64,000 nucleotides of DNA from Siphonodentalium dalli. Its lineage: Eukaryota > Mollusca > Scaphopoda > Gadilida > Siphonodentaliidae. The stretch is from NCBI GenBank assembly GCA_032622095.1, contig CP136062.1, positions 228,112,578-228,176,577 on the forward strand, read 5' to 3'. Positions within the stretch are counted from its first letter, which is position 1. Every line of letters begins with the position of its first letter. Below are positions 14,344 through 54,100 of the stretch, in pieces. Made by a program: the position numbers and the translations under genes. A model generated the notes under the pieces. It had not been told where the DNA came from. It worked only from the letters and a program-made list of their open reading frames with translations, and did not search any database.

Positions 14344-14382
14344 AGTCTTGAGTCTATCGGTTTCTAGCCAACATGTTTAGAT

Positions 14383-26700: not shown

Positions 26701-29700
26701 TCGGATCAAACCCATATTCGAACTCGATCTGTATTTTGGGCTCTGAAACTCGCATACCAAATATGGTTCCGATCAGATAAAAATTGTTTGAGTTATGACA
26801 GCATGCGTGAATTCGAAGTCGAAAAAGGGCCATAACTCCGTAAAAAAAACTCGGATCAAACCCATATTCGAACTCGATCTGTATTTTGCTCTGAGAAACT
26901 CATATACAAAATTTAGTTCCGATCGGATAGAAAATATTTGAGTTATCGCACCATGCGTAAAGTGTCTACGGACAGACAGACGGACGGACAGACGGACGCA
27001 CGACGAGTGGTCAATCCGGATGTCGACATTATGTTTACCATACTATGGTATGGGTAAACATAAAAATTATTGTCCAATATAAGCATTATAACACAAGGGT
27101 TAGTTCAATTGTACGATAGTAATCATGAGAGTTCTGTCACGTTACATACCCTGTCGTGCCCATCCCACCAAGTAACCGTGCCCTGGATGCTCAAATCCCT
27201 CATGGTCGTTCTTCAACTCCTTGTACATATTCAACAAGCTGAAATGATCAATTAATTTCAGATTTAAAATAACAATTATCTAATATCGATAATATATAGA
27301 CAAATTATTAATTTGATTCGAAGATTGTCTTCTGTAAACATTCAGGTTAACAGGTTATCTTAAAATCAAATTTTAATAATTTAATATAAATTTACCTCAT
27401 GGCACAAGCCGCAAACTAAAATACGAATTTCCATGTACAAGATGTATTCAAATTAACCCTTTACCCAACAAACCGGCCAAAACCGGCCAAATAAAGCTTC
27501 AACAGCCTAAAATATCTTCGGTCTGTCTCAATAGAACCATACAAATATGGATATCATTGGAACCGGCTCATTGACCACATTGTGATAGTTACAGTTATGC
27601 CCTGTGCCAATGCATTCTCTTATTTATGCGAGTCGACCATAGGTCGCCTCGCATATATAAGAGAATGCATTGGCACAGGGCCCTTCTGTTGGGTAAAGGG
27701 TTAAGAGACGAGAGGCCGATCATGATCGGCAGATGTTTAACCCATACCTTGGCAATAGCGATTAGCTATAACTGATAGTTTGTCAAAGATATGATCACAG
27801 GAATCCATATATCAGATCCCAACTTGAAATCAAAAGCTCAAATAATCTGTCTTAAGATGGGTTAAAGTATTTGGGGTGGGGGAGGACTAGTTTTAAATCT
27901 CTTAACTCTGTCCCTATTCACCCAAGGACCTCTCACTGTGAGATCCAACGGTTTAGTGATTTCAGAGGATTATGTTTAGTTATGTTAAGTTAACTTATTG
28001 GAAGTAAAAGTGTTAAATCCATATCTCTGCCACTTTTGACATGCCAGATATTCAAAATTTATTCACTTCTAAAGAGAAATTATATTTTGTTGACAAGCCA
28101 GACAGCTTAGAACAACATACATGTAGGGGATTCCATCTCATATTTAAATGGTATTTTAATTACCCCCCCCCCCTTCCCCCATTCTCCCCAGTTATTTGTT
28201 TATCAGATCTGACCTGTGTACTAAATAAGATTAAGTGTTTCATAACAGGGGTGTATGGTTTTCAAAAATATATGTAGTTTATACAATTCAAAAGTATGAT
28301 CTATATAATGTTAAACAGACATAATATGATGAGGATGCTGGCCCCTATGACCCCTAAATCGTAACAGATTACCAATAAAAGAAAGTAAGTAGCCCTCAAT
28401 TAAATGGTTTCACACATTACAATGTTTTACAAGTAGCTTGGATACTAAAAGCTACAACCTTCATTGTTATCCTCCTCCCTATAGGCCCATGTGCTGTCAC
28501 GTGCCGGGCGACAAATCACACTGTCGCCTGCTGACCCGGGAGACATTGTTTTTGCCGCCCGCCTGATGTTATATTGCAAGAATATCTCCAAACACACACT
28601 GCAGTAACTCATCTATTTCACATCACTACAACGTACTATAAATTCATAGATCTTATATACCCCACAGGTTCGCAAAACACACCAGTTGTGGTGTTTGCTA
28701 ATTTGCATATATTTAGTGAACACTAATATTCAAACTTTTAAGTTGATACTTTTATCGGACAAGCGTTATTATTTACTTTTTACATCGAAACATCTCGGTG
28801 ATTCAATTTGTTCATGTCGACATTGTGATGCAAGAGAGATCCCTTGAGGTTGGTTGGTTATAAATGTTCGCTGGTAGACAACGTAATGCATACGTTTGTC
28901 GTGAATGAATGGTACTGTACGATGCGATGTCTGCAATGTGATCATAGAAGTATTTTATGTGAGGATCGCCATGAGCACTGACACATATGAATGTACATTA
29001 ATGAAATTGACAACTTCCCAATAGCTTTCGGGGAAGACCGTTATGAAATGAACATTGCGTGCACAAGACATTGAATATGCCACATTGCAGAAGACGAGAA
29101 CATACCTATATGGCTTATTGGTTTACATTGCATGGACCCATATTGACGATTTGACCACCAAAATGATCGTAAATAAACGCGGATTATCAAACGCTTAACA
29201 GCTTGAGTATCGTTTATGGAACAGAAATCCTATGGGACGATAAGTAGTTACTGAAAATATACATAATCGGGAAAGAAAGCACTCGTGACTCAGTGCAACA
29301 TCGTCATCGTGCGTGTGGATGGCAAGGATATTTTCTGTGGTATAAATCAGATAACAAAACAGTTGTTGCCCTTCTTCTCGGGAGACATTGAGATTTGTCA
29401 CCCGCTCAAGAACGGAATGTGTCCCTCGACAACGGGCGACAACTGTATAATGTTAATCTTCTAAGTACTCTGTGGCCCCCTAAAATTCAATCAACAATGA
29501 CAATATAAACAAATGGGAAAATAAGGTTCCTGGAAATATTAACATCTACCATCTTGATTTTCAAAACAAGGCATCACCTACAATAGTCATGTAGATTTAT
29601 CTGCCTGTTATCCATTGCATAGATAAATAATGGCTATCAGCCATTATTTTAATTTCAAATTGAAAGCATTTGTCTGAAGGGTTAATATATTTTTCAAAAA

Positions 29701-30166: not shown

Positions 30167-33100
30167 ACCATCAGATGCATACATAATCACAATATGGCGT
30201 TCGCAGTAACTCCCAGCTGTAAATCCAGATTCTCCCTTCCCTTTAAAGAGTGGTCTAATAATTCCATTTCTCCAGTATTCGGGAAATTCCGGTGTTTAAA
30301 CTCAAACTAAAATATTTTTTAATCGTTATTCCAAATATATCAAGAGCAAAAATCGCAGATATATCTAGTATCGCTAGGGTTTGTTGGGTTCAGAATTTTT
30401 TCTAGAATCTTAAAAGATTCAGACGAATTTTGTGCAATAGGGGCAGAATTAATGTTTAGTTTGTTCAATAAAACATCACGTTGTTGAACATATTTTATGC
30501 AGTGTAGAAAAATTTGTCAGTGTAGAAAAAATTTGTCAGTGTACAAAAAAATTTGTCAGTGTGGAAAACATTTGTCAGTGTACAAAAAAAATTCTCGGCG
30601 CTTCGAGCCTCGGCAACTGCGGTATTATATTCATTTCCCGGGCCGGTTTTTTGGCCCAGTCCGCCTCTGAAACCATGTACATTATAGCATGTGTCTATGC
30701 GAACCTTGGAAAGGGTTAATTATTTTTGAAGCAGATTAATGGAATATAGAAGACACTTTATAGGTGAGGGGACCATATCTCACCCTGTAATGAAATTTCA
30801 ATAAGCGAAAACACCAGTCTTACGCTGCCATTAATCAATTTGACAGATAGAATAAACAATTAGCCAGCCACCAGTGTTGTTTATCTTTGACTTCATCTAA
30901 CAACCAACCAGAGCTCTGTATCATATGTCATCACTCATTTCATAACAGATTTCACTTGGAATGACAACGTCTATAAAATGTACTCTCATATACTCTGGAT
31001 ATTGGAAGTTCACATGGTAATTTATTGATATCATTTTATTACATGCAATTATTGCAATAAAATCTTCATATATTCAAAACAGGAGACCACACCTAATTAA
31101 GCTTATAAAACTAAAATAAACGAAAGTGTCAATGACAAATATTTTTTAAAATATTTGTTTTTTTTAAATTGAGCAAGGAGTTAATCTAAAAAAATCTAAT
31201 TTTCTTTGTTTGTTTTTGTTTGAAAAAGGGTCATACTCCTTTAAACAAAATCGGATCAAACCCATATTCAAACTCGATCTGTATTTTGGGCTGAGAAACC
31301 TACATACCAATTTTTTTCCAATCAAATAAAAGCTGTTTGAGTTATGGCTGCATGAATTCTAGTCGAAAAAGGGCCATAACTCTTTCACAAAAACTCGGAT
31401 CAAACCCAAATTCGATCTGTATTTTGGGCTGAGAAACCCATATAAAATATTTGGTTCTGATCGGATTGAAAATGTTTGAGTTATCGCATTACACGTAAAG
31501 TGTCTACAGATGGACAGACGGATGGACGGCTAGACAGATGGATGGACAAATGACGAGTGGTCAATCCGGACGTCGACACTATGTGTACCATACTATGGTA
31601 TGGGTACACATAAAAATCAACACTTCTGGTCAGCTGATCTTGCAGGAAATTTTCAACTAAGAATAATAGAAGAACAAGAATATATTGGCATTTAAAGGGA
31701 GCCAAGGCACTCGCAGTGGGTAAATGTAACCCATAGAGAGCCCCACACAGACTGGAGCAGACGACTCTCCGTAGTGCATGCTTCCATCTGTGTGAGGTTC
31801 GCAGCGGGTAAATGTAACCCATAGAGAGCCCCACATAGGCTGGAGCACAAGACACTCCATAGTGCATGCTTCCATCTGTGTGAGGTTCACAGTGGGTAAA
31901 TGTAACCCATAGAGAGCCCCACACAGACTGGAGCAGATGACTCTCCATAGTGCATGCTTCCATCTGTGTGAGGCTCACAGTGGGTAAATGTAACCCATAG
32001 AGAGCCCCACACAGACTGGAGCAGATGACTCTCCATAGTGCATGCTTCCATCTGTGTGAGGTTCACAGTGGGTAAATGTGCAAAAAGGTATATATAATTC
32101 TGTAAAAACATCACAACCAAGAAGAACAGGGAGAACTTTTTTCTTATATTCCTTATTGATAGCTATCTGATAATGACATTTCGTGTGTTGAAACCATTGT
32201 TTTGTAAACAAAACAAAACAAATTGTCCAAAAAAAATGCTAATCTTGTATTCATGTAGTAAATTCAAATATTTTAGTCTGAATAATTCAGTCCTTTCCAG
32301 TAGATGGGAGTGATTGCTCTCGCACCCGTATGCACTTTAATTCACGGGTGCTAAAATTCACATTCGTCCATCTTGTCAAAATGTTCATGGTCAATGTAAT
32401 CGTTGATTTAATATTGAACTATTGGAAGGTATATTTAGAACCTTTCCATGATCCATCTCAGTTAAATTATGGACATGTGAAAGTAAATTAATAGATATAG
32501 ATCTATCCCACGATGACATTTTGTTTGAGAAACACCCGACTTATGATTATATTACGGCCCAATTTCACCTGTATTCTGAATTGCAAGAGCAAATACGGTA
32601 AGTGCTCTCGCTGTGTTTTCCTCGTGGGAAGGAATGGAATATGATTTTCAGAATATTTTTCATTGCTTAGACCTTTTCCAATGTTTACTGTTAAGTTTTG
32701 ATTAACCCTTTGAGTGCCAGGTGCGATTTTTGTATCGACCCATATACCCTGTGCCAATGCATTCTCTTATATATTCGAGTCGACCATAGGTCGCCTCGCA
32801 TATATAAGAGAATGCATTGGCTTAACAATTTTTTTGTTTTTTACAATTTTTTACAATTTTAATAATTTATTCTTATATTCTTTAACAGACTTATTTTGTA
32901 GGTTTAGGGCCGATGAGATCGGCCCCTGGCACTCAAAGGGTTAAACTTATCTTATTGGTTTAATTGGACTTTTATTGGCAATTCTGCTGTAAAACTACTG
33001 TTTACATAGAATGGTTTACATAGAATGGTTTACATAGAATGGTTTACATAGAATGGTTTCATAGAATGGTTTCATAGAATGGTTTACATAGAATGGTTTA

Positions 33101-36100
33101 CATAGAATGGTTTACATAGAATGGTTTACATAGAATGGTTTGACATGCAAAATCTCATCAGTGGACATTTATTAACCCTTTACCCAACAGAACGGCCCTG
33201 TGCCAATGCATTCTCTTATATATGTGAGTCGACCATAGGTCGCCTCGCATATATAAGAGAATACATTGATTAACACATATTAAAAATGATCAAATTGTCA
33301 AAGAATGTAGAAAATATTATAAGAAAACATGGTAAAAAGTGTTAAAAAAAGATTTTGTTTAGGCCAATGCATTCTCTTATATATGCGAGGCGACCTATGG
33401 TCGACTCGCATATATAAGAGAATGCATTGGCACATGGCATAACTGTAACCATCACAATGTGGTCAATGAACCGGTTCCAATGATATCCATATTTGTATGG
33501 TGTTATTGAGACAGACCGAAGATATTTTAGGATGTTGAAGCTTTATTTGGGCGTTTTTGGCTGGTTTGTTGGGTAAAGGGTTAATAATGAAAATAAGAAC
33601 GAAATCTATCTAATTTTACATGTACTTGATGATGGTTACAGTCTTTTATTTTATTTTGCATGAACCCTCTTCAAAGACCTTGAGTCCCTTTAAAGTCACG
33701 TACCTTGGTGGAGGCCGCACTCCGATCTTCACACTGAAGCACAACCCTACAATGAAAACAGGGTACTGTACAAGCTGGGAACATATGGTTCTCGTTTTAC
33801 CATCATGTCACAACAAACTCGTACAATAACGTTAACCAGTTCACACACTTGTGCCGTTCTTATATATTTATTTGTTCTGAGTCTAATTGGCTGTATAGCA
33901 AAAAAATAAATTAGTTATAATAATATCGAAAATCAAGAAGGCCAGGATATCATCAATAAAACAATCTCTGATTGGCTGTAATTGAGATTTAACCTCATAA
34001 AAATTCCCTTTTTCACCAGTTTTCACCAATCATAAGGAGCCTTTGTGAATAATTGCAGCACTAGCATACTCTGGCAGAATAATAACATACATGTACACCC
34101 TAACGGCCTTCTTTAAAGTATGGTAATACTACCAATAAGAATACTACCAATAAGATTTCAATTATTATGAACTATTAAAGTATGGTAACATGAAAAATTA
34201 AATAGACACCAGAATAATCAGTAAATTTTAAGTCTATATGTGAAGTTATCATCCGGGAACCAAAATAATCAGTAAATTTTAAGTCTATATGTGAAGTTAT
34301 CATCCGGGAACCAAAATAATCATATTCTAAGCTGACGGCACCCATATTCTAAGCTGACAGCACTCATATTCTAAGCTGACGGCACCCATATTCGAACTTG
34401 ACCTGTGTATGTTATGTGATTATTCCATATACTAGTACCAAGATTTGAATACAATCAGATGACCAACTCTAAAGTTATCATCCGGAAACCAAAATGGGAC
34501 ATTTTTTATGCTGAAATGGAGCTTGAAACGAGTGACGGTAGCGGGAGTCATGTTGGCGCTGAATTAGCCAGTGTCCATACTTGTCTACATGTATATTATT
34601 ATTAACATAATAGTATGGTACATGTATGTGTATTTAATGGCAAATTTTCATAAGAAATTCAAACTACTATATATATTAGTACCCACCATGAGCTTGGTTT
34701 GGACCATGATATATATCTTAGTACCCACCATGAGCTTGGTTTGGACCATGATATATATATTAGTACCCACCATGAGCTTGGTTTGGGCCATGATATATAT
34801 CTTAGTACCCACCATGAGCTTGGTTTGGGCCATGATCTATATATTAGTACCCACCATGAGCTTGGTTTGGACCATGATATATATATATTAGTACCCACCA
34901 TGAGCTTGGTTTGGACCATGATATATATATATTAGTACCCACCATGAGCTTGGTTTGGACCATGATATATATATTAGTACCCACCATGAGCTTGGTTTAT
35001 ATATATTAGTACCCACCATGAGCTTGGTTTGTATATCTTAGTACCCACCATGAGCTTGGTTTATATATATTAGTACCCAACATGAGCTTGGTTTGGACCA
35101 TGATATATATATTAGTAGCCACCATGAGCTTGGTTTGGACCATGATATATATATTAGTACCCACCATGAGCTTGGTTTGGGCCATGATATATATCTTAGT
35201 ACCCACCATGAGCTTGGTTTGGGCCATGATATATATATTAGTACCCACCATGAGCTTGGTTTGGACCATGATATATATATATTAGTACCAACCATGAGCT
35301 TGGTTTGGACCATGATATATATATATTAGTACCCACCATGAGCTTGGTTTGGACCATGATATATATATTAGTACCCACCATGAGCTTGGTTTATATATAT
35401 TAGTACCCACCATGAGCTTGGTTTGTATATCTTAGTACCCACCATGAGCTTGGTTTATATATATTAGTACCCACCATGAGCTTGGTTTGGACCTAGTCCA
35501 AGTCTTCTTGTACTAAAACCAGCTAAGATATTGGGATGGCGATGCTGGCGTTTAGTCCAAGCCCGCTTGCATACCAATCCTACCACATGAGTTACGCCCA
35601 CGATCTGTGGCGGGAATTTGTGGTGTATTTTACTCGATTTACCTAGCAAATCAATACATGATGCTATATACATCGGAAAGGCTTACATCTAATGGTCATA
35701 ATGGTGTATAATAATCTAACTTTAATGTTAAATTACACATAGAATATTCCGGTTGATTGCCACAAACATCGATTTGTTTCTTTGTTTGTTTACGTTTTAA
35801 CCGAAAGCCGAAGTGGTCCGAATAAGTTCGGCATAATCCGCTGTTTGTTCTGGGAATTCTACTTTCCGTTTCTATATATAGCGCGGGTTTTCCGAACAAA
35901 AATGTGGAAAACCGATCGCCCGAAAGTCCAGTTTTCTATGTGCTTTCAGAACAATTTCCGCAATAAAAACTTAATGACATAATGGAGGATCAGAACGGTA
36001 GTTTTGTTGACAATTATCGCAAGCAACTTGTCAAAATTGGAGCAAATTAGATCTCTTGTGTCTGACTTACCATGCGTGTGGTGTGCATTTTGACATCTGT

Positions 36101-39100
36101 GTTGATAAAATAATCGGAGAACCGAATCACACAGTTTCGAAATATAGTTCTTCCGTTTTAGTGGGACTTTTCAAACTTAAGGTTCATTTATTTAGTGTAT
36201 TACATTTATATCTCCAATGTTTAATTAATCTATTTATTATTTTATTTATTGACACACATAATTACGATTACAATGGAGAATTCATCGTAATTTGCGTTGT
36301 TGTCCAAAATCTACGGAATATTTTCAACGGAAAATGCCGAACACAGTTCGCGAGGTCAACCGAGTTCGCATACTTTTAAAAAATAGTAAACATTGAGGTA
36401 AATGTCTCTTTTCGCATTAAATTACCGTTTTAAATTCACAACTGATGTGGGTTTCAGATAAAATAGCATGTCTTCTGCGGAAAATATCCGTTTATTGTCG
36501 CAATTGTGATATTTTATTTCATATAATTGTGGTTTTATTTGAGCGGGTCACTAACGCTTAAGCCGTGTCATAAGCGAGCATATAGGGCGGTCTTGGACTA
36601 AACGCCAGCATCGCCATCCCAATATCTTAGCTGGTTTTAGTACAAGAAGACTTGGACTAGGTTTGGACCATGATATATATATTAGTAGCCACCATGAGCT
36701 TGGTTTGGACCATGATATATATCTTAGTACCCACCATGAGCTTGGTTTGGACCATGATATATATATCTTAGTACCCACAATGAGCTTGGTTTGGACCATG
36801 ATATATATATCTTAGTACCCACAATGAGCTTGGTTTGGACCATGATATATATATCTTAGTACCCACAATGAGCTTGGTTTGGGCCATGATATATATATTA
36901 GTACCCACCATGAGCTTGGTTTGGACCATGATATATATATTAGTACCCACCATGAGCTTGGTTTGGACCATGATATATATATTAGTACCCACCATGAGCT
37001 TGGTTTGGACCATGATATATATCTTAGTCAGGGTTTCCGCCAGGAGGAAGTTAATGAGTCCGTATTGGGGAAACACATAACGCGACGGGACGACCATGGT
37101 TCGTCCTGTCGGGCGAAAATTTTGTTATTTGACACCGAAAACTAGCAATTTCCTTGCACCTAAGAGTCCCACAAAGCAACCTAAAGCTACGTATATATTA
37201 CGCAAGTCAATCATTTCCGTGGGTGCTTTAACCCTTTGAGTGCCAGGGGCCAATCTCATCGGCCCTAAACCTACAAAATAAGTCTGTTAAAGAATAAATT
37301 ATTAAAATTGTAAAAAAAAAAAAATGTTAGGCCAATGCATTCTCTTATATATGCAAGGCGACTTATGGTCGACTCGTATATATAAGAGAATGCATTGGCA
37401 CAGGGTATATGGGTTGATACAAAAATCGACCTGGCACTCAAAGGGTTAATTCTGTTGATGGTGTCCAGATAATCAATCAATTAGTTACGCACGTAAGACT
37501 ACCGTCTGATTGAAGACTATATATTAATGAACAAGCTGCGAGTTAGTGTTTACAAATTTATACAATAATATTCCGACATGAATCTAAACATTACAAAGCA
37601 TCTATGCATTGACCAATAATAGATAGCAAGGAGAATTGAATAAAGTATTTCCTAGAATTTCAAGCAGCTTCTGTGAAAATGAAACTAACAGCTAGGATAT
37701 ACGCTGTCAATCGTAAAACTATTTGTGCGCTGTGATGTCATACTGCAGGGTTTGTCTGCAGGAGATATTTATAGCGGCGGAATACGAATGGTAGCGACAT
37801 CTTTCATTCGGAATGCGTAGCTTGTTCAATAGTCTCTATTAGTCCATAAACTGATGACCGCAATTGCTTATTATGCGTATATTGCCATGCATAGTCAACA
37901 AAATCCCAAAGTGATTTATTTCACAATAATACGGAACCTGTCCCGAAATCAGTCTTTATAGTGGGAATTCATAGTGACAAGTTAACAACACCATTCATTT
38001 GATCCATATTACATACATGGAGGATAAAGACAAACACATACCCCCTCCCCAACATGGAGATAAAGTCAAAGTACGGTAAATAATAGTTGCGTTGTCCCGC
38101 CTGGGTCCCCAAGCACAATCAACGACGCACATGTTCACATTTCCCGCCAAAATTATATTTTATAACACGCTGGCTAAAACTCTGTTCTGTACCTCATGGA
38201 CTCTGCAGAGGGACCCATTAATTATGTACCGTACGATAGCACGGGATCTCGGAGAAGGAGTAGTTTCATCCATGAAAATCCCGTGCATAAAAATGTCCCG
38301 ACTAAGAAATTCGGCATTCTTTGATCAAATTATGTAATAGTAGGATATCACTGGATTTTCGAGCATGAGTAGTTTCATTCCGTGCACAAAAATATACATA
38401 TTCAGCAGTCCAGCATTCTTTGATGTTACCGTAACATGCATGACGCTGTATCTAACGTCGCTATTTGACCCGCATTTCACTAGTATTCTGTTTAACCCCC
38501 GATCTCCCGTTGCAACCAAATTTTTTTTACGACATATTGCGACTGACATTTCGTATATGTATGAACCAAACAGATAATCTGCGAGGGGAATGAGGCCGTC
38601 CTACGGACGCTGAGCCGTACTAACGGAAACCCTGTCTTAGTACCCACCATGAGCTTGTTTTGGACCATGATATATATCTTAGTACCCACCATGAGCTTGG
38701 TTTGGACCATGATATATATCTTAGTACCCACCATGAGCTTGGTTTGGACCATGATATATATCTTAGTACCCACCAGGAGCTTGGTTTGGACCATGATATA
38801 TATCTTAGTACCCACCATGAGCTTGGTTTGGACCATGATATATATCTTAGTACCCACCATGAGCTTGGTTTGGACCATGATATATATATTAGTACCCACC
38901 ATGATATATATTTTAGTACCCACCATGAGCTTGGTTTGGGCCATGATATGGATCTTGTCCCAAAATAACCACTTTGACCTGGAAACAAAATGAAGCACTA
39001 TGTTATAATGGGGCTGATTTTTAATGCAATCAGATTGTTATAAAATACACATTTCTGTGAAGGCAACAGATATTAATTAAAGGGACCCAAGGCAATCGCA

Positions 39101-42100
39101 ATGATTAAGGCGTTTCCATGCCTGAGCTATGTCAAGGGACCCAAGGCAAAAGCAGTGGTTAAGGGGTTTTTATGCCTGAGCTATGTCAGGAGGTGAAATT
39201 TTTAGATGGATCTATACAGAAAACTACGTAACTGTTAAGGTAAAACACCACATGAAGGAATCAATGCTATCTGAAGACTATATCAAGCATATTATATAAC
39301 AATAATGAAAGTGTCAATGACACTGTAGCTCAACTTAGGTAGGGGAATAATTTAATGGTTTACAGTAAATGGAGAAATAGGAAAGATGCTGATTGAAATG
39401 TCTTACCTGTGCCAAAGGATTTAGTCTACATGTCATTATTAACATCCATGACAAATTTTATGAAGATCAGACCAAAGCTACAACCTGTAGCCTACTCCAA
39501 AGGATTTAGTCATGCAAAGAGTAAAATCCAAGATGGTTGCTGGCGGCCATGTTTTTTGGCCGAACGACCCCAAAATGACTCGTTCCGATCTACATGTCAA
39601 TATTAACATCCATGACAAATTTCATGATTATCAGACGAATAGTATGACATGTAGCCCGGCCGCGTCAATGGATTTAATTTTGAAATCCAAGATGGCCACA
39701 TGCTGATTGAAATGTCTTACCTGTGCCAAAGGATTTAGTCTACATGTCATTATTAACATCCATGACAAATTTTATGAAGATCAGACCAAAGCTACAACCT
39801 GTAGCCTACTCCAAAGGATTTAGTCATGCAAATAGTAAAATCCAAGATGGCTGCTGGTGGCCATGTTTTTTGGTCGAATGACCCCAAAATGACTCGTTCC
39901 CATCTACATGTCAATGTCAACAGCCATGACAAATTTCATGAAGATCCTACCAAAGGTACGACCTGCAGCCCACGGGAAAGGATTTAGTCATGCAAATAGT
40001 AAACTCCAAGATGGCTGCTGGCGGCCATGTTTTTTGGCCGAACGACCCCAAAATCACTCGTTCCCGTCTACATGTTAATATTAACATCCATGATAAATTT
40101 CATGATGATCAGACTAACAGTACAACCTGTAGCCCTCGCCAATGGATTTAATTTTGAAATCCAAGATGACCACCAGCGGCGATTTTTTTTGGCCGAATGA
40201 CCCCAAAATCACTCGTTCCCATCTACATGTCAATGTCAACATTCATGATAAATTGCATAAAGATCAGACAAAAGGTACGACCTGTAGCCCGCGCCAAAGG
40301 ATTTAGTCATGCAAAGAGTAAAATCCAAGATGGCTGCTGGTGGCCATGTTTTTTGGCTGAACGACCCCAAAATGACTCGTTCCCATCTACATGTCATTGT
40401 TAACACCCATGACAAATTTTATGAAGTTCCGATCAAAGCTACGACCTGTAGCCCACGGGGAAGGATTTAGTCATGCAAAGAGTAAAATCCAAGATGGCTG
40501 CTGGCGGCCATTTGTTTTGGCCGAACGACCCCAAAATCACTCGTTCTCATCCACATGTCAATATTAACATCCATGACAAATTTCATGATGATCAGACTAA
40601 CAGTACGACCTGTAGCCTGTGCTAATGGATTGAATTTTGAAATCAAAGATGGCCGCTGGCGACAATGTTTTTCGGCCGAATGACCCCAAAATGATTCGTT
40701 CCCATCCACATGCCATTGTTAACATCCATGACACATTTTATGATAATCAGACTAAAGGTACGAACTTTAGCCCGTGCTAAAGGATTTAGTCATACAAAGA
40801 GTAAAATCCAAGATCGCTGCTGGCGGCCTTTTTTTTTGGCCGAATGACCCCAAAATGACCCGTTCCCATCTACATGTCATTATTAACTTTCATGACAAAT
40901 TTTATGATGATCAGACTAAAGGTACGACCTGAAGCCTGTGCTAAAGGATGTAGTCATACAAAGAGTAAAATCCAAGATGGCTGCTGGCGGCCATGTTTTT
41001 CAGCTGAATAACCCCAAAATTATTCGTTCCCATCTACATGTCATTGTTAACATTTGATGACAAATTTTATGATGATAAGACTAAAGGTACGACCTGAAGC
41101 CCGTGCTAAAGGATTTAGTCATACAAAGAGTAAAATCCAAGATGGCTGCTGGCGGCCATGTTTTTTGGCCGAATGACCCCAAAATTACTCGTTCCCATCT
41201 ACATGTCAATATTAATATCCATGACAAATTTCATGATGATAAGACGAACAGTACGACCTGTGGCCCGTGCTGATGAATTAAATTTTGAAATCAAAGATGG
41301 CTGCTGGCGGCCATGTTTTTTGTCGGAATGACCCCGAAATGACTCGTTCCCATCTACATGCCATTGTTAACATCCATGACAAATTTTATGATTATCAGAC
41401 TAAGGGTACGAACTGTAGCCCGTGCTAAAGGATTTAGTCATACAAAGAGTAAAATCCAAGATGGCTGCTGGCGGCCATGTTTTTTGGCTGAATGACCCCA
41501 AAATGACTCGTTCCCATCTACATGTCATTATTAACACTCATGACAAGTTTTATGACGATCAGACTAAAGGTACGACCTGAAGCCCGTGCTAAAGTATTTA
41601 GTCATACAAAGAGTAAAATCCAAGATGGCTGCTGGTGGCCATTTGTTTTGGCCGAATGACCCCAAAATGACCCGTTCCCATCTACATGTCATTATTAACT
41701 TTCATGACAAATTTTATGATGATCAGACTAAAGGTACGACCTGAAGCCTGTGCTAAAGGATGTAGTCATACAAAGAGTAAAATCCAAGATGGCTGCTGGC
41801 GGCCATGTTTTTCAGCTGAATAACCCCAAAATTACTCGTTCCCATCTACATGTCATTGTTAACATTTGAAGACAAATTTTATGATGATAAGACTAAAGGT
41901 ACGACCTGAAGCCCGTGCTAAAGGATTTAGTCATACAAAGAGTAAAATCCAAGATGGCTGCTGGCGGCCATGTTTTTTGGCCGAATGACCCCAAAATTAC
42001 TCGTTCCCATCTACATGTCAATATTAACATCCATGACAAATTTCATGATGATCAGACGAACAGTATGACCTGTGGCCCATGCTAATGAATTAAATTTTGA

Positions 42101-45100
42101 AATCAAAGATGGCTGCTGGCGGCCATGTTTTTTGGCCGATTGACCCCAAAATGACTCGTTCCCATCTACATGCCATTGTTAACATCCATGAGAAATTTTA
42201 TGATGATAATACTAAAGGTACGAACTGTAGCCCGTGCTAAACGATTTAGTCATACAAAGAGTAAAATCCAAGATGGCTGCTGGCAGCCATGTTTTTTGGC
42301 CGAATGACCCCAAAATGACTCGTTCCCATCTACATGTCATTATTAACATTCATGACAAATTTTATGATGATCAGACTAAAAGTACGACCTGAAGCCCGTG
42401 CTAAAGGATTTAGTCATACAAAGAGTAAAATTCAAGATGGCTGCTGGCGACCATGTTTTTTGGCCGAATGACCCCAAAATGACTCGTTCCCATCTACATG
42501 TCATTGTTAACATTCATGACAGATTTTATGATGATCCGACTAAAGGTACGACCTGTAGCCTGTGCTAAAGAATTTAGTCATACAAAGAGTAAAATCCAAG
42601 ATGGCTTCTGGCGGCCATGTTTTCTGCCCGAATGACCCCAAAATGACTGGTTCCCATCTACATGTCAATATTAATATCCATGACAAATTTCATGATGATA
42701 AGACGAACAGTACGACCTGTGGCCCGTGCTGATGAATTAAATTTTGAAATCAAAGATGGCTGCTGGCGGCCATGTTTTTTGTCGGAATGACCCCAAAATG
42801 ACTCGTTCCCATCTACATGCCATTGTTAACATCCATGACAAATTTTATGATTATCAGACTAAGGGTACGAACTGTAGCCCGTGCTAAAGGATTTAGTCAT
42901 ACAAAGAGTAAAATCCAAGATGGCTGCTGGCGGCCATGTTTTTTTGGCGGAATGACCCCAAAATGACTCGTTCCCATCTACATGTCATTATTAACACTCA
43001 TGACAAGTTTTATGACGATCAGACTAAAGGTACGACCTGGAGCCCGTGCTAAAGGATTTAGTCATACAAAGAGTAAAATCCAAGATGGCTGCTGGCGGCC
43101 ATGTTTTTTGGCCGAATGACCCCAAAATGACTCGTTCCCATCTACATGTCATTGTTAACATTCTTGACAAATTTCATGACAATAAGACGAACAGTACAAC
43201 CTGTAGCCCGTGCTAATGGATTGAATTTTGAAATCCAAGATGGCCGATGGCAGCCATGTTTTTTTTCCGAATGACCCCAAAATGACTCGTTCCCATCTAC
43301 ATGTCAATGTCAACATCCATGAAAAATTTCATAATAATCGGACCAAAGGTACGAACTGTAGCCCGTGCTAAAGGAAATTGTTGACGCATCACGCACACAC
43401 ACACACGCACACACGGACGACGGATACCAAGCCATGGCAATAGCTCAAACTTTACAAAGTAAAGTTGAGCTAAAAATGTCAAAAAAAAGACTTTAATCAT
43501 AGTTTTAGAAAGGAACTGTGTTCTCAGAAAGTTTACAAATTGAGTGGAAATGAACAACTGCCATAAAAAGTACATGATCTTAAAGTGATGTGAAACACGC
43601 CTAATAGGGTAGTCAAATAGAAATGGAGAATAATCTTGTTCAAAGTAGTTATTTTTGGGAATATTAATCAAAATTTACAACACACACACCGTAATTCTGA
43701 TATTAATTAAATGAAATGACTCTCGATGATAAAATGATTTGTGTTTGTTTATTGCTGATAGTAGTGTCCCAAATCCAGATTTAAATATTTACAATTGAGT
43801 GCAGTTTGGACCTCATTCTGCTTAGGCCTCGTCTTCTCTGGAAAGTATCTTTATAATCAAATTAACAGGAGTTTTAGTTTCTTTTTGAGTTTAATTTAGG
43901 AGATGACACAATGCATAATCATGTGCACAATGGGTGCACGTCACCATTTGGGAACTTAAATCTGAGTCTAGGTCTCCCATAGCAGAATGAGGTCCCCAGA
44001 GGGTGAATTTAGAATGCTAGCCCGCTGTGCAGGGTAGAGTCACTAAATTTAGTTTCTGGGGACCTTATTCTGCAAATCGGACCTCCTATTTACCGAGAAC
44101 AACCGAGAACAACCGAGAACAAGTCCAAAATTAATAAATAAGTCATAATAATGTCCAAGTATAGTGTACATATCACTCTTTTAGATATTGTACCATATTT
44201 GACCATTTAAATGACATATATGTAGTTATTTTACGTATACCGAGAACTTGAAACGTCGCCGCCATGTTCTCGGCTGGCGGGTAACACAAAGGCATGAGTC
44301 ATGCCTAAGTGTTAATCTAAAAAAGACCGACAATGACGAGACTGTGCAAAAAGTAATCAATAAAGTTTTCAATACAAAGACTGGATTTCTGACAATTGAC
44401 AATGACAGACATACGATGAGACAGAAGCTGACATACTTACGCAAAACAGACGATATTTGACAAATTCATTCATGCCGAGATTACGAACTAAAATATTTGA
44501 TGCTCGAAAGCAAAATAAAACATTCCTAAATTTTGGACTAATAACAATTGTGAATCAATGAATACTATTATTAAATTACCAACCGATTGGAAAATATTAA
44601 AACTCCCCGAAAAAAAAGTCCCAAAGGGCAATGTCACACACTCCCCTTAGATGGGGTAAATGTGCCGAGTCTCAAATGGTGGAGCTTGAGTGCTGTAATA
44701 AGTGAAACATCACAAGCACTTTAAACAAAACATTGGGGCACGTTGTCTGCCGGTCCAAAGCCCGGATAAAAGCTGATGGAAGTTTAAATTCGTGTCAAAC
44801 CGAGAAGACACTACAAACCGAGAACAAGCTTAATTATCAAACCGAGAAGACACTACAAACCGAGAACAAGCTTAATTAATTAAGCCGATACGCTGTATGT
44901 TAAACGAGATCGTCGCTCGGTGGCGCTTACAATTTGTTAACAATATGTCGGTTAAATGCATAAAAGTAAACATTTTAATGAAAATATTGATGTCTACTGT
45001 AGATATTTCAAATAAAACACTATATAAAAGTATATTTAATGTATATAAGGCATTTTAAACCTTGTTCTCGGTTGTTCTCGGTAAATAGGGTGACCCCTGC

Positions 45101-48100
45101 AAATGTCCAACACCACATTTTGAGGCCTTCTTGTAAATAGTCCAAACATATGTTGAAAATATAAAAATCTTACATCGTTTATATCACAGAAGTTTGTCCA
45201 TGAGAATACTTCATTAGCGGGAGGATAAATTGTACGCCGCTGTCGTTCTGCTTCAACAAATTTGCCAAGCTGAAAAAGAAAGAATTTCGACACAGAAATT
45301 TAATTTATAGACAGAATACAATGCGCTTTTAAATCAAGAATCTTTTATCGAATGAGTTGCAGACAACTCAAGGAAACATTTCACAAAAACCAAGCTTGAG
45401 TGACATGTGACTGTGCCAGGCCTGAGAATAAGGGCGTCATTTGCAGAATGAGGTCCCCAGAGGGTGAATTTAGTGATGCTATCCCGCACAGTGGACTAGC
45501 CAATCATTAAATTCACCCTCTGGGGACCTCATTCTGCTTAGGCATCATCTTCTCTGGAAAGTTACTTTATTATAAAATTTCTATAGAAACTTTTTGACAT
45601 AGATTCTATTTCTTTTTAGTTTAGTTTCTCTATATTGCAAAATTGGCAGACGACACATTAATTTGGGTACACCGGGCCGATTAAGATGAATTTTCCATGA
45701 GAAAAAAATGTCAAAAACTTTTGCTTGCTCATCTGGAAATTGGCCGAAATCATTGTCATTTGTGCTTTAGTGTGTAACTAGTTGCATCTTTAATTTTATG
45801 CTATTTTGCCTGTTGTTCGTGGTCTAACTGTTGTACTCATTATTTTTCATCAAATATTGGACATAGTTTTGTAATGTTATGAGTTTTTAAACATACAAAA
45901 TGAAAAAACTCAAAATTGGGACCGCAACACCTGTGAAATGTACTCCTCGGTGATTATTTCTACCACCCGCCGCTAACCTTTATTCTAGCTCTATTTAGCA
46001 TCATTTGCTGACAAAAATCACACCTTCAGATGAGCGTATTCGGGCACAATTCTGTATTTTGGGCACATTGTTTACTGGGTCTAATTTAAATTTGGGGAAA
46101 TTTAAAGGTCTGATTTGAACAAATATGAATCCCAAAATGCACCACGATGCTAAATATGTGGCTGGGATATTTGGCAGTTAAAAGACAAAACCATTTTATT
46201 TTCAAATGTTGAATGACAATCACACAAATGGACTATCAAATGATAGAAATTTAATTGTAATTCAAGTTGAATATTTGTTGCTGATACAGGCATTCTGATT
46301 GGCCGAAAGCTGCTAACGTTAGTTTTCGATTCACCAACATCGGTCGCTGAAGTGAGCACTGTGTCATTGACAACACACGTAAAATATGTCACTGCGCTGC
46401 CAGTCGCAGTAGGAGTAGCATAATCGTGTCAACGGTGAACCTGAACTTTGTTAACAGGATTTTGTTCTGGTGCTGTTACAAATAACCACATGGAACATAT
46501 CCATAGATTTTGCAATAAATTAGAGAAAAAAAGGATTGAATAATCTGAAATATTTTATTTTCCAGCAATGTATGCAGCTGGAATAAATGTAAATAAACAG
46601 TAATTGAACCGGATATTTAGCTCTGTTTGTTGTTATTAAACATGCTTGTTACGAAACAATATTAGAAACGCAAATATGCTCATCCCATTAAATGTGACAA
46701 CAGGTGATAAAATGTTAGTAGACTGGTCCATCTACAATGTTGAGAACAATCTTATTTATGGTCATTCTTTATAGTGGAATACATTAGTTTATATCAAAAC
46801 AATGTTCTCCTTACATTTTCTTAACCTGGGAAGGTATAATAACCCATGCTAACTATGGGCATTATCCCCATAACAAAAATAAAAAATAAAACTAAAACCC
46901 TCGCTCCCTCATCGATTCTCAAAAAAACTTGCCCGAGAATCAAAACACTTTTTTTTTTTGGCCTTATGGTCATTCTTTATAGTGGAATACATTAGTTTAT
47001 ATCAAAACAATGTTCTACTTACATTTCTTAACCTGGGAAGGTATAATAACCCATGCTAACTATGGGCATTATCCCCATAACAAAAATAAAAAATAAAAAT
47101 AAAACCCTCGCTCCCTCATCGATTCTCAAAAAATATTGCCCGAGAATCAAATTTTTTTTTTTTTGGCCTTAGTTACAGATTTTGCAACAAATTAAAACAG
47201 AATAACATTCTGGATTATTAATCTGGATTATTCTAGAATATTCTTACAATTGTAATATTCCGGCTTTATATTACAGTTTAACTAATAACATTCTGGATTA
47301 TTAATCTGGATTATTCTAGAATATTCTTACAATTGTAATATTCCGGCTTTATATTACAGTTTAACTCTTCTATAATGTTTGTGTTTAATCTATCCAAATT
47401 TAATATATTCTAGTTTATTCATGGTACCATCAAGCCTGAGTTTAGTGTGCCTGTCATTTGCAGAATGAGGTCCCCAGAGGGTGAATTTAGTGTGACACTA
47501 TCCTGCTATGCTAAATTCACCCTCTGGGGACCTCATTCTGCTTAGGCCTCATCTTCTCTGGAAAGTTTCTTTATTATAAAAACTTCTTCACATAGATTCT
47601 ATTTCTTTTTTAGTTTAGTTTCTCTATATCCCCAAATTGACAGACGACACATTGCATAATCAAGGTTCCCATTTGCGGCATAGCATCACTAAATCCACCC
47701 TCTGGGGACCTCATTCTGCAAATGACAGGCACACTGAACTCAGGCTTGGGTGCCATATACCATTCTAGAATAGTTTCCTGGTCAGGATGATAGCAGTGAA
47801 TCCTTACTTTTTCAAAGTATTCTTTGGAGAATTCATTCTGTAAAGCATTGAACCATGACTGGCCAAAGTCACAAAGCAAACCATGAGATTTGGTCACTGA
47901 CAATCGTTTCTCCGCAGCGGCATTGCTTGTAGTCATCCTGTCCTTAAGATATGATAAATTTGAGTTAAAAGTCAGAGGGAATAACAGTATACAAACACAA
48001 GCTCTGAAGAGCTTTTGACCAACTGTAAAACAAATACATACATGTATATAAATTAACCCTTTACCCAACAGAACGGCCCTGTGCCAATGCATTCTCTTAT

Positions 48101-51100
48101 ATATGCGAGTCGATCATAGGTCGCCTCGCATATATAAGAGAATGCATTGGCTTAACACATTAAAAATTATAAAATTGTTAAAGAATGTAAGAAAAAATGG
48201 TAAAAAGTTTTTTTTAGGCCAATGCATTCTCTTATATATGCGAGGCGACCTATGGTCGACTCGCATATATAAGAGAATGCATTGGCACAGGGCATAACTG
48301 TAACCATCACAATGTGGTCAATGAGTCGGTTCCAATGATATCCATATTTGTATGGTTTTATTGAGACAGACCCAAGATAATTTAGGCTGTTGCAGCTTTA
48401 TTTGGCCGTTTTTGGCCGGTTTGTTGGGCATAAAGGGTTAAACAAATACACAATACCATATAAATTTTATACGAGTTAGAATAAGTTATCCTAGTTAAAA
48501 TACAATGATAATTTTGATGTATCGAGTAATAAAAATTACCATTTAATTTATAAAACGAAAGGCTGATCACGATCAGCAGATGTTAACCCATCCCTTGAGC
48601 TTAAATTAAAAGATTGATTGTTTGCCCACTCGAGACCGACCCGAAAAAACGGCCCGACTCTGCCCGACTGGGAATTTTTTATCGCCGTATTGAATGGTAA
48701 TTTTTTTCCCCTGGAAAATCGGCTCATGTTCGTTCCGTTATGTGGTGATAACCTTTTGTTACAATGCCGTGATACGGTTGTATTTGTAAGTAGTACACAG
48801 TAATCGTGTAACTAACGGGAATTATATATCAGGGTTTCCGCTAGGGGTCGGGGGAATGGGTCCGGTAGCTGCTATGGGGGAAACCAGTAAATAATTAAAT
48901 ATATGAAGACCCATTTATCTGTAATTTCGCCATTTACAGTACCGGCCGGTGTACGGTATATATAAGTCGCAATTTTCTAACCCAATTTCCCTTATTAAAA
49001 ACTTCCTGCGACTTATGGATCGGTATGTCATGAGGGGCATTTTTCATCAGGATTTTGAGAAACAGACGGCGATCACAGGTAAGCAACAAGACAAAATGCC
49101 GGCGCAAACTAAATCTAAAAAGATGATAAATCCGATATAAAAAAAAGAAATAAACAAACCCATTCTCACTGTGTCTGTGTGTCTTTATTTTATTCCCTGT
49201 CTCACACATTTATATCAAATTATATGTATTAGTATCTGATAATTCAACTGCAAAAGAGCAGCAAAACATTGGGCGTCCTTGACCTGACTAATAATTGTGG
49301 ACATGTGCATGATGTTCAATGACTGCAGTATAATAGCTTTTATTATCTCTATTATTGTGACACAGTTAACTGCACGTGTCTGCAAACTTCTACTGGATGA
49401 CGTCACATCGGAATGAGGGCACGCATGTTCAGCGTGTTATTATTTAATGGGGCATTAACACGAAGCCGCGAACTTGTGTATGTTGCACAAAGATTCTTTT
49501 ATGATGATCGCCATTAGCCCAAGCGTTTTCATGCTTCAGTTCGCGACAATAAGCCAAGTCGCAATTTTATATTACTATAAATGATACGATATTTGTGTGT
49601 TTCCTCATGCCTCAAACTATACACATGTTTTATACAATTTAGAATAATGATGAATAAATTAGTCCAAACGCCTCGTCAATATTCACGTCAAGATAATAAA
49701 TGAGGCAGTTTTTATGATCCACATTCCCATACTCTGAAGTAAATTGAACCAATGATATCTCCCTTGATAGGGCATTCCCCACCAATCACGTGGGGGAATC
49801 CCGTGGAACTATTTGTGGGGTGTCACTATTTATGGTTTGTTCATGCTGTTATTATATTTTTCCTGAAGATGGACTGTGTCAATTCCATTTGGTCATTATT
49901 AATGAAAATAAGGTTAAATATCATATATAGCCTGCCGAGACAGACAAGACTAAGTTTTTAATAACGTCATTTATTTGTGTATGAGCGGGATTTCATGGCA
50001 AAGGTCGGCAGGGGGAATGGGTCCGTGCGACGGACCCCCAGCCAGCCTGGCAGAAACCCTGTTAATATATACAAGTATACATGGTTGGAAACTAAAGCAG
50101 GTATGGCTAGGTGTTGTTACCGGTAATACATACTAGTAAGTGAGCTGACACCATCGCCATTTTCAAAATTCAAAACATGAATCATTATGTTGTAATTAAA
50201 TTCTCTATTATTTTATAGAGCGTCATGCTATTACTAAAATCCATAAAAGCTTCAGATTTGATAAAATGTATGTTGAGAGGCATTTGCATTCCATATATAG
50301 ACGTCATGCAATAAACAACCGAAAATGCACATGGGCACACCACGTGTTACAAATGGAAACCCCAAAGATAACTGTCTCATGGGGGTCCCCACGGAATTCC
50401 CTCAAGTCGCAACCTCTCTAAACAATTAACCTATCGATCATATCGCAATTGAAAATGAGGTATCACAGTCAGACAAACTAAGTCAGTTGTATATACCAAC
50501 AGCCGTGTATGGCAGGGTAACTTTCATAACTTTAAAAGACGTTTACTTTTGATGTCATGTTTATCCATTTCGAATTTGAAGAAAATGAAATTAGAAAGCA
50601 CAATGTCATTTGAAATTGAATATTTTCGTGTACACGGTTCGCGCTATTGCTTAAGTAAATATGAGGACAGGTTGTTGGGGTTTGTATTATGCTCATTTCT
50701 GGGCTTTAAAAAACATCATTCCGATGTGACGTCATCCGGTAGAAATTATAAGTTGCAAACACGTGCAGTTATCTATATCGCACAATAGATACACCAAAGG
50801 GATTATGCAGCAGTCATTGAATGTGGCAATGTGGGTCTATCATGCACGTGTCCATGCAGTGAGTCAGGTCAAGGACGCGCACAGTCTACAGTACAACGTG
50901 ACCTATACTATCGTTCTTATATAATTATGTCAAGTTTTCAAATACTAATAAATATTTTCGGATAAATAATTTGTTTAAATATCTGGGGCAGAGAATAAAA
51001 TAAAGACACAATGTGAGGTGGTGTTTAGTTCTTTATATCGGATTTTATTATCACGTTGGAGTTGCAAGTACATGTAGCTTGTGTCGTCATATTTGGAATT

Positions 51101-54100
51101 GAATTTGCAGATTCTGTCACCTTGGCTTACCTGTGGTCACGTTTATTCTGAAAAATTCCGCTAAAAACTCGCTATCCAAATATTCTAGCTGGTTTATGTA
51201 CGAACAGACTTGGAAATATGCCTGAATATAGATCCGAGCACATTATCACCTATTTGCACGTGCAGTATGCCGGTTAGCAGTGACTTCAAAGGAGTTACAC
51301 GGGGACGTCGGAAGCCGAGAGGTAGCGTACTAGTCTCTCGTGATAGCGGACCGGGGATCGCAATCTGATCAGGGTATTCTGACAAAATTCAGAACTCGGT
51401 CAGATACCAAGATTGTCAGGCTGAAAAGTCTCATTCGAGATCACTGAATAAAGATCCGAATGCAAAATGCTGACTTCCCCCCATTACAATACTTGTCCAG
51501 ATATGTTGTCGTGGGTGCAGTACGCTGTCCGATCGGGCGCGGACATTAATGGCTGACCCGTGTACACGCCTCGGTGTGTGCACGTTAATAAAGAATGCTA
51601 CTGGAGTCACCATAGGGTTATAAAGTTACTCGGCTGTGGTAGCACCTGGACCAGTGCGTCTACAACCAGAATTGGTTCCTGCACTGTAATATCTACAGAT
51701 ACTGATAATGATTAAAGACATTAGTACTCTAAAATAAATTTAGTTTCATGCGAGTACCGGTAATGTACGTAAGCTTCAGTTTCTTCATATATTATCGCAA
51801 ATTATAAGCCAACTTGAACAAGAGATTGAAAATTGTCGTTATATCTTACTCAGCCTTGAGTCTTCAAAAAACAACAGTGAAAATTATTCTTATCGGCAGA
51901 TTTTTCTATCGCGGTTGACACGGGAAATGACCGCGGTGTAAGGCGGTCGCGGAAAATACTACCGCGGTGTACGCCGGTAAACAGACTAGATTACCGCGGT
52001 GGACTTTCAACACGACCATGGTCAGATACCACGGGTCACCGCGAATGGACGCGGGGCTACCGCTTGACCACAGTGTAGTGGCGGTATGACCGCGGTCATT
52101 ACCGGCCCATAGCCTCGTTAAAGGGGTCGATTAATTAAGAGCATAGGTCGAATTACATCACAACAATTATTGGAATTTATGGGTCACTCGCATTTATATA
52201 AGAGAATGCACTGGTACAGGATCTGTAATGCTGCACCACCACAATTCTACCAACAATATAGATCAAGATAAGCCACCTCACTGCTGACCCAATAATATCA
52301 ATTATATAGCAGAGCTGTCAATAAATCACAGGAATTGTTTATGTTGAAAGCTGGCATCTCTATTAAACCAATAACATTTATAATGACCTCAGATCATCTG
52401 TAGAGTGATATCTTCAGCTGTGCAAGGCAGCACAGATGTTCAATCTACTGTTAATATCATGTGATGTGTATTGTTGAATCTTTATTTTAAATTAGATACC
52501 ATAGCTTTCTTCATCAGATTATCTGCACATTGGCATAAGAGACATCAGAACATAATATAGCCTTATCAATAGCTAAGTAGTCCAAAGGCATGGGATGCAA
52601 TTTGTGAATTGGATTTAATGTCGCTCCAAACAAATTTACCAGTACATAACACAAGATTTTGGACTGATTTAAACAAATTTGGTGTGGTGACTCGGGGTAC
52701 CCTTGGCAGGGTTATAATGGTGTTAGTTTTTCAAATTTTGTTAAATTAAAAAAACAAATTGGTTTTTAATTATTTTAAAAAAAAAAAAATTATTTAGGCC
52801 AAAAAAAAAAAGTGTTTTGGTTCTCGGGCAATTTTTTTCTTCAAATCAATGAGGGAGGGAGAGTTTTATTTTTATTTTTTATTTGTTTCTGCGCATAGTA
52901 AGCATGGACAAAGATACCTTCCTCTGTCTAGTAATAACCAGAAAGGTAGAGGGAACTGTTATGCATATAAACTCATTTAGTCTTATATAAAAATGACATT
53001 GTACTACCAGTGTATGACTGGGATTACCTAACAATATATAATGCCCCTGACATTAACTACTGTTATTGTTGTCTAAAAACTGATACCTCCCCATTCTAAT
53101 ATGTGATCCTGAATTTAGTCCTGTGCCATTCAATTGTATAAAGTTACAATTAGTGTAAGTTGTTCACAATGACTAATTGTAAGAAACGCATGAGGATCAG
53201 CTAATCATTTTCTTAATTGTAGTCATCTACTTCATGTTGTAAGCCTGCAAGTCACTTTTTAACACATTACATGTTAGAGCTCAATGCACACTAATATTCA
53301 ACACATATCTGCTATGGACATGTTGATAAAATCCCCGAAAAAAACAAATTTTTTTTTTTTTATTTTTTTCAAATTTATTTTTTCGTAAGTTTTTTTGTCA
53401 TAACATCAGGCATTGCAATAAAAAGGCCTAATGCGGCCCTTTTTATTAAATGCTGCAGGGCCTGAGAACCAAAACCTTTTTTTTTTGGCCTTATATATAT
53501 TTTTTGTTTATTTATTTATTTTATTTAATTTTTTGTTAAATTGAGCAAGGAATTCAATCTAATTTTTTTTTTAAGAGTGAATATTTTTTTGAAAAAGGGC
53601 CATAACTCAGTTAAAAATAGTCGGATCAAACCCATATTCGAACTCGATCTGTCTTTTGTGCTGAGAAATTCATATAAAAAATTTGGTTCTGATCAGATAG
53701 AAAATATTTGAGTTATCGCACCATGCGTAAAGTGTGTACAGACAGTCAAACAGACAGACAGACGGACAGACTAACGACGAGTGGTCAATCCGGACAATGA
53801 TACTATGTTTTCCATACTATGATATGGGTAAACATAAAAAACACCAGAAAAAAAACATCAGTATAATTGAATTTGCGGACTTCCGGTAAAATGGCGGCGA
53901 GGTAAAACGTGTTTGGAACTCCGCGAATTAAAAATGAAATAATAATCTCCTCTTCAAGATTATATCCCCGCAAATAAGCTGAAATTGAAGAAAGATGTAC
54001 GTAAAGCGATCCAAATGATTGGCATGTGTTCAAAAAGTACTCAGAAGTGAAAAAAAATACAGTTTCTTCACTACACGGAATAAGGAGACTCAATCAGCGA

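Follow-up and report, generated by a model that had tools for sequence, protein, structure and literature searches.

The window analysed here, 64,000 nucleotides in length, holds on its minus strand a UNG gene of which seven coding exons were found; all seven are open, and all six introns between them have GT-AG borders. The protein joined from these exons, with the first left out, matches the UDG fold (PF03167, E 3.6e-21), and on fold, motif, open exons and intron borders the gene can be assigned to UNG, i.e. family 1 uracil-DNA glycosylase. This speaks against the possibility, raised in the earlier note as one that would undermine its reading, that the copy is a pseudogene. A PF03167 profile search of the animal's own genome missed this gene, whose exons are short, and gave a single match elsewhere, on contig C7. 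The exon of interest, at 38924..38978 on the minus strand, is 55 nt long and its last base begins the codon split off at its end; it had been rightly identified as a UNG exon, although its number, and that of the intron after it, was given as five, whereas it is the third of the seven found. It encodes the active-site loop of this DNA-repair enzyme. The preceding exon lies at 45174..45269 (minus strand, limits read from exon searches) and the next at 33704..33746 (minus strand), with the acceptor CATTGTAG. The authentic donor, GTGGGT, runs on into TACTAA (38913..38923, minus strand), the TAA of which would stop translation in frame were the intron read through.

From this donor onwards the intron is occupied by a tandem array with 37 donor positions, counting the exon's own, the 36 further copies extending down to 34686. 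The unit consists of the last 26 nt of the exon followed by 16 nt of intron (42 bp in all), and is quasi-palindromic, with 36-nt arms that are 72% complementary. The analysis bore out where, and on which strand, the earlier note had placed the array, as well as its tandem nature, although the units are less uniform than the roughly 35 repeats of 42 bp that it reported: the 36 between-donor segments comprise 20 of 42 bp, seven of 44, six of 32 and one of 24, and two interrupted by insertions. Likewise, the part shared with the exon, put at 25 nt, is 26 nt in full units and less in the six 32-bp units, which retain just its end. Full units show zero to two differences from the exon (37 columns, 29 of the 37 rows compared), and in 13 of 34 segments the length class, not being a multiple of three, breaks the reading frame. 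A donor had been claimed for every unit; GT is indeed kept at 36/37 positions, but GTGGGT at only 33/37. The claim that TACTAAG occurs in each unit fails, since it follows 15 of the 37 donor positions, TACTAAT following 21 and TACTAAA one.

Nearest the exon, the block at 38635..38923 (minus strand) contains one shortened copy of 24 bp, six 42-bp copies and the start of an interrupted one. It is followed by a TE-like insertion at 37029..38634 with inverted ends (CAGGGTTTCCG / CGGAAACCCTG), which splits a unit and beside which TCTTAGT is repeated relative to the unit phase (limits and repeat both by eye). A second block (36660..37028, minus strand) mixes 42- and 44-bp copies, and a second TE-like insertion, inside a unit at 35494..36659, also has inverted ends (TAGTCCAAGTC / GACTTGGACTA; limits by eye); neither insertion is assigned to a strand. 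In the third block (34668..35493, minus strand) copies of 32, 42 and 44 bp form a higher-order repeat of 394 bp, present in 2.1 copies with 98% matches. At the distal end (34630..34686, minus strand) the last donor-position copy passes into unique intron (GTGGGTACTAATATATATAGTAGTTTG), from which the presumed single-copy junction follows. A 27-mer pattern taken from the unit had 52 matches in the 2.23-Gb genome, 36 of them in the UNG array (the exon's own included), and the same 27-mer read backwards had none, so that the match of the array is not due to chance. Minisatellites as such are common in this genome: 13 arrays with a period of 15-100 and at least three copies were counted in 100 kb drawn from ten arbitrary places, and UNG itself has two arrays that touch an exon. 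The 28 kinase loci cut out as a control for arrays overlapping exons all turned out to come from one amplified kinase cluster.

The claim that the array grew out of the exon can be judged by what a founding duplication should have produced. When the exon and the intron beyond the array are joined, they predict a 42-bp unit with no extra bases needed, and the unit at 35207..35248 (minus strand) equals that product base for base; the twenty 42-bp segments differ from it by zero to three bases. This prediction takes the 42-bp period as given, and a list of microhomologies of 4 bp or more offers periods of 24, 36, 38 and 40 but not 42. Together with the closeness of full units to the exon, the exact match strongly supports derivation of the array from the UNG exon, and the exon, as the note had it, stands at the end of the array and is the only unit with the preceding codons. 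The array probably arose by a local duplication in which intron just past the donor (TACTAATATAT) was joined to the exon (ATATCATGG...), with 3-4 bp of A/T homology at the joint. This would have created the unit of exon end, donor and 16 nt of intron, after which slippage and unequal exchange would have yielded the 36 extra copies, including the higher-order repeat; the two insertions split the array later. The array's exact 15-mer is absent from two 10-kb pieces of contig C8 with UNG-like paralogues, but these are only 38-57% identical and thus say little about the single-copy state.

Searches of the 2.23-Gb genome revealed one further array of the unit, on contig C4. In the animal's own genome, BLAST with C4 units, like the UNG-type 27-mer, found matches only in the UNG array and on C4, and a C4-type 25-mer matched C4 only. 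With two loci in 2.23 Gb (in searches of limited sensitivity, on a sequence that may contain N stretches), the unit is not a dispersed satellite family of many loci. The exon-intron-exon duplication junction is common to both arrays. C4 units differ from the exon at two to six positions (17 of 18 rows), on average at 3.9 as against 1.1 for units of the UNG array (on contig C2), and they differ more among themselves (2.9 vs. 1.0), so that the C4 array may predate the UNG copies now present. In 20 kb of C4, tblastn with the UNG protein found no recognisable UNG exon, and outside the array units this search and a blastn with the whole window gave shared repeats and weak noise only; a decayed UNG pseudogene on C4 is therefore not supported. 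The C4 array is bordered on both sides by sequence that matches dispersed repeats; a first look at the two flanks gave 765 and 462 candidates, of which 40 were scored for each flank and ten places fetched. Two of these places, L009 and L010, show a short match to the left flank (20 bp, 90%) at 3 bases from the right-flank match, and L012 carries both flank matches, so that the two flanks may come from a single repeat family. An exact empty site was not found among the ten fetched places, since about 60 bp adjoining the array are missing from L009 and L010. The shared junction, the greater number of differences, the lack of UNG exons in 20 kb and the dispersed-repeat borders make it most likely that the C4 array is a daughter, i.e. 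that a piece of an array from UNG seeded C4. Thus, the second array that the earlier note would have held against its reading does exist, but it looks derived rather than independent. GTGGGT is kept at 7/18 donor positions on C4 and at 33/37 in UNG, a difference that might be a sign of maintenance in the gene, although such retention is no test of maintenance because the units share ancestry.

What the extra donors could do to the transcript is constrained by a feature absent from the earlier note, namely that an in-frame TAA occurs no more than eleven bases from each donor position. Use of any of the 36 downstream positions would give an extension (...NQAHGGY*) directly followed by a stop. 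The authentic donor, nearest the acceptor of its exon, presumably serves in most cases, and occasional use of a downstream donor would give an immediate stop and a truncated or decayed mRNA. We also considered whether RNA structure hides the decoys. The first 301 nt of the array are predicted to fold better than 100 of 100 shuffles (z -6.35), but a repeated quasi-palindromic unit can give strong folding by itself. Local folding gives the true donor a predicted accessibility of 0.0002, as low as that of the copies (median 0.0005). Of the seven lengths at which folding was cut (6-120 nt downstream), five place the true donor below the median of the copies and two place it above; the true donor is thus not set apart by predicted structure, which was rejected as the basis of donor choice. 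At the presumed single-copy junction the true donor is predicted to be 2-3 times more accessible at 25-40 nt downstream, and 13-65 times at 60-120 nt, all values being very small. Since the donor is predicted to be less accessible with the array than without it, the array perhaps is not effect-free.

Taken together, we consider it very probable that the array is a neutral minisatellite born by slippage, the donors of which are decoys causing at most some poison-stop splicing; an array without selected function is, on the sequence evidence, the most likely case. One may also consider an alternative in which the 36 donors compete with the true one, so that the share of transcripts ending at a TAA tunes UNG dose and array length is the setting. 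The exon donor's exact 9-mer ATGGTGGGT recurs in 28 copies (at 29 of 37 positions, counting the exon's own), with predicted U1 pairing equal to that of the exon donor (-9.8 kcal/mol), the native exon is short and use of the first copies would extend its 55 nt to 79, 121 or 163 nt, and the predicted loss of true-donor accessibility points the same way. In human ABCA7 comparable donors are usable and a longer VNTR leads to more skipping of the next exon, but unit retention is about 2% and unaffected by VNTR size (PMC5954066), and we regard dose-setting by the UNG array as unlikely. A mobile form of this idea, with a second chromosome (C4) seeded in whole units, as from a circle, and the length of an array of decoy donors leading straight to a stop setting, through repeat instability, the dose of a repair enzyme that has its own effect on mutation, seems quite improbable.

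A ten-residue insert in the active-site motif loop of UNG would probably disable the enzyme. It is what the units would supply if they served as 30-nt cassette exons, as had been proposed, and nine of 34 uninterrupted units could give an open in-frame insert or a one-residue variant of it (a tenth, interrupted by an insertion, was seen by eye and left out of this score). Variants of 32 and 20 nt shift the frame, the candidate AAG acceptors have no pyrimidine tract before them (by eye), TACTAAG is confined to the minority of positions given above, and TACTAA lies beside the supposed acceptor, too near to be its branch point, so that we give this reading hardly any credence. The same holds for the notion that the array is a landing strip for U1 snRNP, protecting a long AT-rich intron from premature polyadenylation: there are 36 donor positions in a 5.2-kb intron with eight AATAAA, but two other UNG introns, 6.5 and 10.3 kb long, contain eight and seven AATAAA without any match to the donor 27-mer, and the array donors are predicted to be buried in structure. 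That a pre-existing satellite, with C4 as its older member, invaded UNG and supplied the exon end would fit the existence of the more diverse C4 units, yet it appears highly improbable, as the shared part encodes a conserved UNG motif in frame, which together with the exon-intron-exon junction on C4 requires UNG as the source, and C2 units are nearer to the exon than C4 units.

An array of this kind has known counterparts. The 25-bp VNTR in intron 18 of human ABCA7 holds the exon 18 donor, its first two bases being that GT, and resembles the UNG array in starting at an exon's donor, in its large copy numbers and in that splicing at the donor of the following unit leaves one unit in the transcript and brings in a premature stop (PMC5954066). 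That VNTR is described as intronic, whereas 26/42 nt of the UNG unit are exon, and splicing and polymorphism were measured there, the UNG array being known from the sequence of one assembly; the available part of the report mentions no copy on a second chromosome comparable to C4 (PMC5954066). The human CBS VNTR, c.1444_1467+7(16_21), has 16-21 copies of 31 bp with substitutions among units and by its coordinates joins the last 24 nt of an exon to 7 nt of intron, donor included; its intron part is shorter, its copies are fewer and the gene is another one, and the portions of the reports available to us mention no dispersed daughter array such as that on C4 (PMC2630376, PMC1395315). Internal tandem repeats found at exon-intron boundaries of human segmental duplications, averaging four 30-bp units, likewise indicate that minisatellite expansion at such a boundary can alter splicing, but they have far fewer copies on average and come from paralogue comparison with transcript support (PMC2812944). 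In other cases duplication across an exon-intron boundary also copies existing splice signals (PMC3443670); unlike these, the predicted 42-bp UNG unit has no AGGT (by eye) and no convincing new acceptor, and its copies lie inside an existing intron. Since the UNG array abuts the exon, its unit holds that exon's donor and the unit at 35248 equals the product predicted from the exon-intron boundary, it is a good new example of a donor-containing boundary VNTR of the ABCA7 and CBS kind, a phenomenon already known. Our literature search found no UNG minisatellite among the matches listed, which is not proof of absence.

At this locus the birth of a minisatellite is recorded with unusual clarity, one genome showing the founder exon, the predicted product of its duplication, a unit still identical to that product and, on another chromosome, a diverged array. 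The locus also amounts to a natural experiment on how the splicing machinery chooses between many nearly identical donors, a problem that has its medical counterpart in ABCA7. Should the decoys influence UNG dose, repeat length would, speculatively, feed back on DNA repair.

When human UNG was used as a tblastn query, seven coding exons were found in order on the minus strand of the window, which lies on contig C2 of a 2.23-Gb genome assembled in nine contigs. Their edges, read from the sequence, are approximately 47936-47808 (start uncertain), 45269-45174, 38978-38924 (55 nt, the founder of the array), 33746-33704 (the GLCFSV exon, with a tblastn E-value of 0.099 only), 27238-27150, 16805-16627 and 14708-14559. 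All six introns are GT-AG, the exon-joined protein (first exon omitted) matches PF03167 (E 3.6e-21), and a 33-residue piece with the UNG motif matches PDB uracil-DNA glycosylases (E <=0.001 for 40 distinct sequences). No marks of a pseudogene were found in these seven exons and six introns. The label "exon 5" of the earlier note is not established, the array-bearing exon being the third of those found. UNG also has a second exon-touching array (58-bp unit, 4.7 copies, 14351-14621, minus strand), made from the coding-sequence end and stop codon of the last exon; the stop codon lies at the first unit junction, and the repeat runs on as 3' UTR. On the strand opposite UNG, an open stretch at 32500-32600 (plus), inside a UNG intron, looks by eye like an exon and runs into GTAAGT. 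Elsewhere in the genome, another gene of UNG type is present as an inverted pair (C8:75349801-75359800 and C8:75396501-75406500); its matched pieces share 38-57% identity with the window UNG, and the motif reads GQDPYHAEGQ in one copy and GHEPYHVEGQ in the other. The sole PF03167 match in a Pfam search of the genome (C7:58046326-58046694, E 4.2e-5, one internal stop), where human UNG gave only weak tblastn pieces, is perhaps another UDG-superfamily gene.

Past the 55-nt exon there are 36 copies of its donor position, or 37 including its own. Donor-to-donor segments measure 42 bp (20 cases), 44 bp (seven), 32 bp (six) and 24 bp (one), and the remaining two segments, of 1655 and 1218 bp, each contain an insertion whose ends look inverted by eye; since these insertions split units, they postdate the start of expansion. 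The exon-adjacent 24-bp copy resembles, by eye, a 42-bp unit minus 18 bp between two CATGG words, and the distal block forms a 394-bp higher-order repeat (TRF; 2.1 copies, 98% matches). A splice donor had been thought to be kept in every unit: GT is indeed present at 36/37 positions, but GTGGGT at 33/37 and the 9-mer ATGGTGGGT at 29/37. Nor is TACTAAG universal, as TACTAA is followed by G at 15, T at 21 and A at one.

The intron past the last copy reads GTGGGTACTAATATATATAGTAGTTTG, and joining the exon to it gives the inferred single-copy junction. Duplicating 26 exon and the first 16 intron nt of this junction (lengths taken from the observed period) predicts GTGGGTACTAATATATATATCATGGCCCAAACCAAGCTCATG, to which the unit at 35248 is identical, which bears out the proposal that the array grew from the exon. 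The twenty 42-bp segments differ from this product at no position (one), one (11), two (six) or three (two), and no similar 42-mer (<=10 mismatches) occurs elsewhere in the window. The exact breakpoint is uncertain because A/T tract length varies between units; a list of microhomologies of >=4 bp contains ATAT for the periods 36, 38 and 40 plus, for 24, an unrelated CAAG, but has no entry for 42, where by our own reading the present-day flank offers 3 bp (ATA).

Minisatellites are dense in this genome, with 13 arrays (period 15-100, >=3 copies) in 100 kb of N-free sequence sampled as ten arbitrary 10-kb pieces; two of the 13 have >=13 copies. Chance alone will therefore bring some arrays into contact with exons. 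In the window, a 164-bp tandem repeat family occupies 39425-43375, 17234-19198 and 3167-4395, two blocks being in UNG introns. A palindromic element (CCAATGCATTCTCTTATATATGCGAG...) has many copies (32745-32830, 33195-33440, 37325-37405, 27600-27705, 48076-48295 and elsewhere, also on C4), some inside TE-like sequence with CCCTTTGAGTGCCAGG ends. Two long plus-strand open frames (54019-54963 and 56407-60225) look by eye like the ORF pair of a non-LTR retrotransposon; the 1272-aa product of the latter resembles an endonuclease-reverse transcriptase. Elsewhere on C2, 96 of the 135 protein-kinase matches listed (134/983 candidates scored) form one cluster (149.83-150.60 Mb), with many identical scores, open frames of ~280 codons and 2-3 kb spacing; at L029, within it, a 226-aa ORF with internal repeats adjoins a kinase ORF.

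A 27-mer searched in the genome with <=3 mismatches matched 52 places, 36 in the UNG array (exon's own included) and 16 at C4:119453546-119455167; a backwards control had no match in the genome. BLAST of the genome with C4 units gave 15 matches, at the UNG array and C4 loci, and a C4-type 25-mer was found at 11 places, on C4 only, though such absence elsewhere is not proof. The C4 array has 18 donor positions (GTGGGT at 7/18) in two blocks of period 42-43, its flanks match dispersed repeats, and no recognisable UNG exon lies in the surrounding 20 kb. Both edges fall, by eye, at TTCAT, as insertion of a whole number of units would produce. The exon-intron-exon junction is present in C4 units, which must therefore derive from a tandem of UNG units. 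C4 units differ from the exon by 3.9 on average versus 1.1 for UNG units (17/18 C4 copies and 29/37 C2 copies, the latter including the exon itself; those lacking the full exon part omitted), and among themselves by 2.9 versus 1.0. This greater diversity of C4 units counts against a simple story: the UNG copies seen today may have been re-homogenised recently.

The UNG array belongs with exon-boundary repeats of the ABCA7 and CBS kind. The 25-bp ABCA7 VNTR begins with the exon 18 donor, and splicing also uses a cryptic donor one repeat further along, so that a single unit is retained and a premature stop arises; retention (2 +/- 1%, our reading) is independent of VNTR size, and exon 19 skipping increases with VNTR length (PMC5954066). 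The CBS VNTR comprises, by its coordinates, 24 exon and 7 intron nt in 16-21 copies (PMC2630376), and boundary repeats that change splicing are described for human segmental duplications (PMC2812944). What is unusual here is the exact founder unit and the array on a second chromosome; among the papers listed in literature searches, none reports the UNG array.

If splicing used any one of the 36 later donor positions, the lengthened exon would run straight into a stop (...NQAHGGY, then stop), as was confirmed for all 36. Inclusion of a unit was expected to add ten in-frame residues; among 34 uninterrupted units, 14 have an AAG start, and nine of these would give an open in-frame 30-nt insert (ten residues or a variant), whereas the other five (20 or 32 nt) would shift frame and reach a stop. 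One interrupted copy, outside this count, also has ACTAAG plus 30 nt in its far half. No pyrimidine tract was seen by eye before the unit AAGs, and frame is not kept across units, 13/34 uninterrupted segments not being multiples of three. Predicted U1 pairing is -9.8 kcal/mol for exon donor and standard copies alike (full consensus -14.0); predicted RNA structure does not separate true donor from copies, though in these predictions the array leaves the true donor less accessible than the inferred single-copy junction does. None of these results shows a selected role in splicing, and the likely cost of the array is occasional mis-splicing into a stop.
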